Under the pieces are notes generated by a model that worked only from the letters and a program-made list of their open reading frames with translations, was not told where the DNA came from and did no database searches. From Bacteroidota bacterium (GTDB taxonomy: Bacteria > Bacteroidota > JABWAT01): DNA of 64,000 nt. The stretch is taken from the NCBI GenBank assembly GCA_023151185.1, contig JAKLJL010000001.1, forward strand, positions 806,001-870,000, written 5' to 3'. Position numbers and translations under genes: made by a program. Positions 58,799-59,175 of this stretch are shown piece after piece (the stretch's first letter is position 1; the number at the start of each line of letters is the position of its first letter).

Positions 58799-58871
58799 GC
58801 GGGAATAGCTCAGTTGGTAGAGCGCAACCTTGCCAAGGTTGATGTCGCGAGTTCGAGTCTCGTTTCCCGCT
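58799..58871 (+). tRNA. tRNA-Gly(GCC)
   Basis: GCGGGAA pairs with TTCCCGC in a 7-bp acceptor stem, with discriminator T. The D arm is AGCTCAGTTGGTAGAGC, and the anticodon loop TTGCCAA between CAACC and GGTTG gives GCC. The T arm has GTTCGAG. The 3' CCA is not encoded. It is followed directly by the 80-bp repeat array. Confidence 0.97.
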
Positions 58872-59116
58872 CTAAATCAAAAGATTAGGATTGAAGAGCG
58901 GAAGTAAGCTGGTGATGTCGTCCCGGAAATCGGGAAGTCTCGTTTCCCGCTCTAAGTCAGAAGATCAGGATTGAAAAGCGGAAGTAAGCTGGTGATGTCG
59001 TCCCGAAAATCGGGAAGTTTCGTTTCCCGCTCTAAGTCAGAAGATCAGGATTGAAAAGCGGAAGTAAGCTGGTGATGTCGTCCCGAAAATCGGGAAGTTT
59101 CGTTTCCCGCTCTAAG
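58861..59116 (+). repeat. 3.2-copy 80-bp tandem repeat derived from tRNA-Gly
   Basis: Copies start at 58861, 58941 and 59021, plus a 16-base partial at 59101. Each begins with CGTTTCCCGCTCTAA, the first part of which is the 3' end of the tRNA-Gly gene. Copies 2 and 3 are identical over 80 bases; copy 1 differs at six positions. Inside each unit, GCGGAAGTAAGCTGGT resembles the tRNA 5' end, followed directly by GATGTCG (variable-loop region) and a hairpin TCCCG-N5-CGGGA in place of the T arm. The unit thus looks like a tRNA-Gly that has lost its anticodon arm. No spacer diversity is seen, so this is not CRISPR. Confidence 0.93.
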
Positions 59117-59175
59117 TTCTTTTTAAGCCCGGTTTACGGGCATTGTTAACTTCAGGAGTTTTGCTCCGATAAAGG

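Follow-up and report, generated by a model that had tools for sequence, protein, structure and literature searches.

Tandem tRNA-Gly decoys in a Bacteroidota genome: a probable nuclease-less derivative of a tRNA-resident, homing-like GIY-YIG element

Introduction

The 178-bp repeats of the E. coli tyrT operon (rtT RNA) lie in tandem behind a tRNA gene and hold the tRNA 3' end; to our knowledge, neither a nuclease nor an arm-replacing hairpin family occurs there. Ssn of Neisseria, a small GIY-YIG enzyme associated with short repeats in the genome, is not known to be linked to tRNA genes. SegB of phage T6, also a GIY-YIG enzyme, cleaves in tRNA genes and drives the tandem amplification of a unit made up of tRNA and segB (PMC13096335). 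The free-standing GIY-YIG homing endonucleases of T-even phages, SegB in particular, resemble the elements analysed here in enzyme superfamily and in their siting among tRNA genes, and the accessible parts of the two sources describe no arm-replaced tRNA decoy or hairpin for SegB (PMC2988022, PMC13096335). SegB is, moreover, a phage gene, whereas the present elements are chromosomal, have a single domain and fall into many isotype-linked lineages; the SegB protein is also the larger one and has extra DNA-binding regions.

Here we analyse a stretch of 64,000 nucleotides from a Bacteroidota genome (the window), in which a tRNA-Gly(GCC) gene is followed by a tandem array. The array resembles the tyrT repeats, in that both consist of tandem units which lie downstream of a tRNA gene and include a tRNA 3' end. 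It also shares features with REP/RAYT systems and small palindromic elements, which likewise combine short constant palindromes, a nuclease-type enzyme and non-autonomous copies; REP/RAYT, however, depends on an HUH (Y1) transposase and has dispersed extragenic copies, whereas the enzyme here is of the GIY-YIG type and the copies in this genome are confined to tRNA loci.

Results

The intact, functional copy of tRNA-Gly(GCC) lies at positions 58799-58872 (ARAGORN; Rfam RF00005, 70.4 bits), and a tandem array with a period of 80 bp, 3.3 copies and 96% matches extends over 58856-59117 (TRF), its first partial copy being the 3' end of the intact gene; these and the following features are on the + strand. 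Comparison with the intact tRNA sequence delimits three decoys, at 58895-58952, 58975-59032 and 59055-59112, the last of which is followed by the native-type downstream region. In each 80-bp unit the eight bases CGAGTTCG, which make up the 5' strand of the T stem and part of the T loop of tRNA-Gly(GCC), are swapped exactly for a hairpin TCCCG-N5-CGGGA, located at 58921-58935 in decoy 1 (TCCCGGAAATCGGGA) and at 59001-59015 and 59081-59095 in decoys 2 and 3 (both TCCCGAAAATCGGGA). The hairpin is preceded by AGAGCGGAAGTAAGCTGGTGATGTCG, a degenerate remnant of the tRNA middle (58895-58920 in decoy 1), and followed by the tRNA 3' end AGTCTCGTTTCCCGCTC (58936-58952 in decoy 1), which has one change in copies 2 and 3. 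Copy 1 differs from copies 2 and 3 at six positions (58876, 58880, 58886, 58896, 58926 and 58939). When folded as single-stranded DNA, the window hairpin reaches about -5 to -6 kcal/mol, vs. -2.4 for the native T arm.

A preliminary description of this DNA had reported a tRNA-Gly followed by exact 80-bp units, with copies 2 and 3 identical and six changes in copy 1, and with the tRNA 3' end, a GATGTCG stretch and a new hairpin in each unit; ARAGORN, Rfam, TRF and position-wise comparison bear out all of these features. It was also right to regard the array as tRNA-derived and its units as deletion derivatives, the units being the 3' part of the tRNA with an arm replaced, whereas the 5'-like part that it listed is a remnant consisting of a degenerate piece of the tRNA middle only. 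Comparable decoys accompany tRNAs of many isotypes; they may precede or follow the gene, and the arm affected differs. The search in related genomes that it had proposed showed that congener G001 carries, at the same tRNA, two 86-bp units of the same design with a better-kept anticodon-side remnant, so that an assembly artefact is unlikely for the window array. We detected no nuclease gene or remnant in the window array, whose 80-bp units contain no ORF.

In a systematic comparison within the window's genome, 6 of 40 tRNA genes had partial or decoy copies beside them. The decoy design is present without a nuclease gene at Gly-GCC, Gly-CCC, Ser-CGA and Leu-CAA; at tRNA-Asp and tRNA-Ser(GGA), a small GIY-YIG gene lies between the intact tRNA and the decoy, and at tRNA-Asn a GIY-YIG gene is present with no recognisable decoy. 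Searching the genome with the window array recovered a second array, behind tRNA-Gly(CCC), with six units of ~89 bp, five or six of them with a terminator; in some of its hairpins both partners of a pair are altered (TCCCGA..TCGGGA to TCCCGG..CCGGGA). TRF applied to the tRNA flanks identified two nearly complete 265-bp copies behind tRNA-Ser(CGA), whose T loop holds a compound palindrome of 55-60 bp. Upstream of tRNA-Leu(CAA) it identified two 97-bp copies, in which TCCCGATTCAATCGGGA stands in place of the anticodon arm CTGGACTCAAAATCCAG. Decoys of tRNA-Ser (loci L078 and L204) contain a compound palindrome of 55-62 bp that is inserted in the T loop rather than replacing it; these palindromes share the ends TCCA..CTTGGGGA and an inner GGACCCGTC. 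Of the 13 sites in this genome that match the hairpin pattern, 9 are in tRNA decoys, and the remainder is near the control level.

Across genomes, the full element consists of an intact tRNA, in some cases a copied terminator, an ORF of ~80-110 aa encoding a single-domain GIY-YIG protein, and a decoy, a copy of the tRNA that has a hairpin in place of one arm; the usual form of the hairpin is (T/C)CCCG-N-CGGG(A/G). Most Asp, Gly and Ser elements have lost the T arm to the hairpin, and most Ala, Val and Arg elements the anticodon arm; less frequently, in several Asn and some Asp elements, it is the variable-loop region. The order tRNA-ORF-decoy is the commonest, and the mirror order decoy-ORF-tRNA, with a duplicated promoter, occurs in Neomarinimicrobiota and in some Ser elements. 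Many of the relatives found by the T-arm pattern are units of 315-460 bp with an ORF of 80-95 aa, and for several T-arm types the encoded protein has ...GGRPD/E as its last residues, the stop codon lying within the hairpin loop. At one locus (L095, genome G050, 750-1200), the D arm of a 5' decoy of tRNA-Gly(TCC) holds a palindrome of another kind, CCTGCCTGCCGGTAGGCAGG, while the usual hairpin is present in the 3' decoy of the same tRNA; the adjacent tRNA-Thr(GGT) also has a degraded decoy. ARAGORN scores some hairpin decoys as tRNAs (Ala-GGC and Cys-GCA; L243, 1481-1554; L259, 1276-1349 and 1375-1448), the false anticodon coming from the hairpin loop.

Searches of 394 genomes of the phylum identified the T-arm decoy pattern in 22 genomes, representing 18 of 170 genera (reversed-pattern control, 0), and the anticodon-arm pattern in 33 genomes (controls, 0). 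Combined, the two patterns occur in at least 49 of the 394 genomes, vs. none for the reversed controls. A tRNA was present in all 30 of the T-arm loci fetched; among 30 anticodon-arm loci, 28 were near a tRNA and 15 had a GIY-YIG match. A protein scan of 84,980 species with one element nuclease as the query yielded 76 loci, in Ignavibacteria, Balneolaceae, Flavobacterium, Chitinophagaceae, Bacteroidales, Neomarinimicrobiota, Patescibacteria and others. The nuclease ORF was within 260 bp of a tRNA on the same strand in 53 of the 76 loci and of one on the opposite strand in none. Automatic search at the nuclease loci located 39 decoys, missing some with imperfect hairpins or mirror order; 32 of the 39 contained a hairpin, and 28 of the 32 hairpins shared the (T/C)CCCG core despite differences in isotype and replaced arm. 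Because the query was a protein and not the hairpin, the selection of these loci did not favour hairpins. A minority of nuclease loci have no decoy, and the queries used found no nuclease homologue in phages, plasmids or viral contigs.

The element ORF matches the Pfam GIY-YIG family (PF01541, E = 1e-14 to 1e-17), and the catalytic residues Y5, Y16, G18, R26, H30 and E62 are invariant in 36 diverse members; NCBIfam has no family for this nuclease. Its predicted structure (pLDDT 89.5) is a bare GIY-YIG domain, closest in sequence and fold to UPF0213 and Slx1 (PDB 1zg2, 1ywl and 6seh), followed by the I-TevI catalytic domain. UPF0213- and Slx1-like proteins are likewise bare catalytic domains; however, the UPF0213 structures are of uncharacterised proteins, Slx1 acts with Slx4 on branched DNA, and neither is a tRNA-linked mobile gene. 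On the nuclease tree, tRNA isotype requires 21 changes, compared to 44.8 for shuffled labels, and none of 200 shuffles was as low; since label shuffling leaves shared descent in, this result shows clustering and is not proof of specificity. The replaced arm and the hairpin core, the latter read by eye from the decoys, cluster on the tree in the same way. Flavobacterium has Ala and Asn elements with different nuclease lineages.

When the bases fixed by the search patterns are left out, 78 of 81 distinct hairpins have a complementary first free pair, counting G-T as a pair (shuffle mean 51.5, maximum 63), with A-T in 59, C-G in 15 and other pairs in the rest, and the second free pair is complementary in 51 of 53 hairpins, vs. 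30.8 when shuffled. The core follows the nuclease lineage, being TCTCG..CGAGA in the Asp clade of Lentimicrobium/Bacteroidales and TCCCG in other Asp elements, and the hairpin therefore seems, from this co-occurrence, to be a property of the element and not of the tRNA. Constant over isotypes and most nuclease lineages, it is most likely a cis site of the element, putatively one that the nuclease recognises or that protects from cleavage. The dRS3 repeats of Neisseria, ATTCCC(N8)GGGAAT, resemble the hairpin core (PMC3898611), a likeness that we regard as a lead.

In a ten-genome genus (that of genome G088), orthologous tRNA-Gly(GCC) loci have an intact ORF, a broken ORF, a remnant or an empty site. 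In this genus, each host's tRNA variant recurs in its decoy fragments, suggesting that these arose by local duplication or conversion. Within the window's genus, the tRNA-Gly(GCC) site that is occupied in G001 is empty in G002, and the region past the last decoy of G001 closely resembles the region past the intact gene of G002. Presence/absence patterns of this kind could be due in part to loss. Outside the hairpin and the tRNA fragments, unit content varies between congeners. Plain duplication of the tRNA was also observed: at L035 and L036 (1501-1812), two intact tRNA-Gly(GCC) genes lie in tandem, 237 bp apart, and we noticed no decoy between them.

Discussion

In our view, the window array probably derives from a tRNA-resident, homing-like mobile GIY-YIG element, as a form without the nuclease and with tandemly amplified units. 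The identity of the element is well supported; its cleavage target and mobility are inferred. Since the window units hold no nuclease remnant, it is the analogy with the anatomy of the full elements that suggests an origin by deletion of the nuclease gene.

Slippage could have duplicated the ends of the tRNA, with REP-like palindromes inserted later and the nuclease an incidental neighbour. Tandem copies and palindromes each have known origins, some relatives carry plain, hairpin-free duplications of tRNA-Gly(GCC), and the window array itself is without a nuclease. This is the least improbable of the alternatives, and we nevertheless think it unlikely, given that the hairpin core is tied to the nuclease family across phyla and was recovered from the protein alone, that 53 of the 76 nuclease loci adjoin same-strand tRNAs, that the hairpins of this genome are confined to decoys but for a control-level number, and that core, arm and isotype all follow the nuclease tree.

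Slightly less probable still is a functional RNA array, kept for its transcripts as rtT-like small RNAs, tRNA-processing decoys or regulators. The small-RNA analogy had been put forward in the preliminary description, and the siting of the array in a tRNA gene cluster, where it is probably co-transcribed, is consistent with it; covariation in the hairpin would equally be expected of an RNA. The folding and RNA-family checks proposed there, however, gave it no support: the folding of the 80-bp unit does not stand out from that of shuffled sequence (z about 0 to -1.8), and an Rfam search of the window locus matched tRNA as the sole family. Beyond the hairpin and the pieces of tRNA, unit content differs from one congener to another, presence is patchy with orthologous sites empty, and many homologous decoys lie behind terminators and adjoin a nuclease gene. 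The feature conserved between genomes is a nuclease-linked hairpin and not a processed RNA.

The units could also be scars or tandem att-like copies left by tyrosine-integrase elements, given that tRNA-site integration repeats tRNA 3' ends and regenerates an intact tRNA, and that the T and anticodon arms are its classical crossover zones. This origin is very improbable: no integrase was found among the neighbouring ORFs scanned, the units are 80-460 bp in length and hold a GIY-YIG gene or nothing, a hairpin stands in place of the arm where an identical att core would be expected, and some decoys precede the gene and have duplicated promoters. A system useful to the host, in which decoys absorb tRNA-targeting enzymes or integrases and the nuclease is domesticated, has just as little probability: the decoys do resemble tRNA genes altered in exactly the arms used by integrases and anticodon nucleases, but their distribution is patchy and decaying within a genus and they are often too fragmentary for a tRNA fold.

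The homing-like reading agrees with free-standing homing endonuclease genes in two respects: the autonomous elements have a GIY-YIG domain with intact active-site residues, and occupied and empty alleles exist at the same conserved site. The precedent of SegB makes this inference reasonable (PMC13096335). The intact tRNA copy would keep the host alive, while the nuclease would break the DNA at the tRNA locus, and recombination repair via the tRNA and flank repeats would carry a copy of the element to a cognate tRNA gene that lacks one. The same repair recombination could expand or contract tandem units, unequal recombination leaving tandem arrays; the earlier idea of the array as a recombination substrate is plausible.

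Classical homing, however, implies that an occupied allele resists cutting. At an occupied locus the decoy has lost one arm to the hairpin, yet the intact copy retains the full tRNA and, with the copied terminator, looks like an empty site. The escape of the intact tRNA from cutting is therefore a problem, which recognition of the hairpin would avoid. We tentatively propose, as a possibility that may well prove wrong, that the GIY-YIG enzyme recognises the folded hairpin (T/C)CCCG..CGGG(A/G) as the end of its own element, and that one nuclease acts in trans on nuclease-less, hairpin-marked satellites at several unrelated tRNA genes. The satellites in this genome would be Gly-GCC, Gly-CCC and Leu-CAA, and the nuclease encoded at its tRNA-Asp locus may act on the window array.

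Neither the enzyme superfamily nor the idea of homing is new. In the literature searched, coverage of which was incomplete such that an earlier description is possible, we found no account of the tRNA-GIY-YIG-hairpin arrangement; the tRNA-decoy-hairpin architecture, its spread over many isotypes and the nuclease-less arrays appear to be new. Hairpin decoys can pass as real tRNAs in annotation, and tRNA counts may be inflated as a result. If our reading is true, minimal and apparently overlooked selfish elements, each made up of one domain of ~80 residues and a hairpin of 15-20 nt, would reside at tRNA genes in a good share of Bacteroidota-like bacteria and in some other phyla. Such elements would account for tandem arrays and partial tRNA copies that are otherwise puzzling, and would represent a chromosomal counterpart of phage SegB that offers simple, testable nuclease-hairpin pairs.
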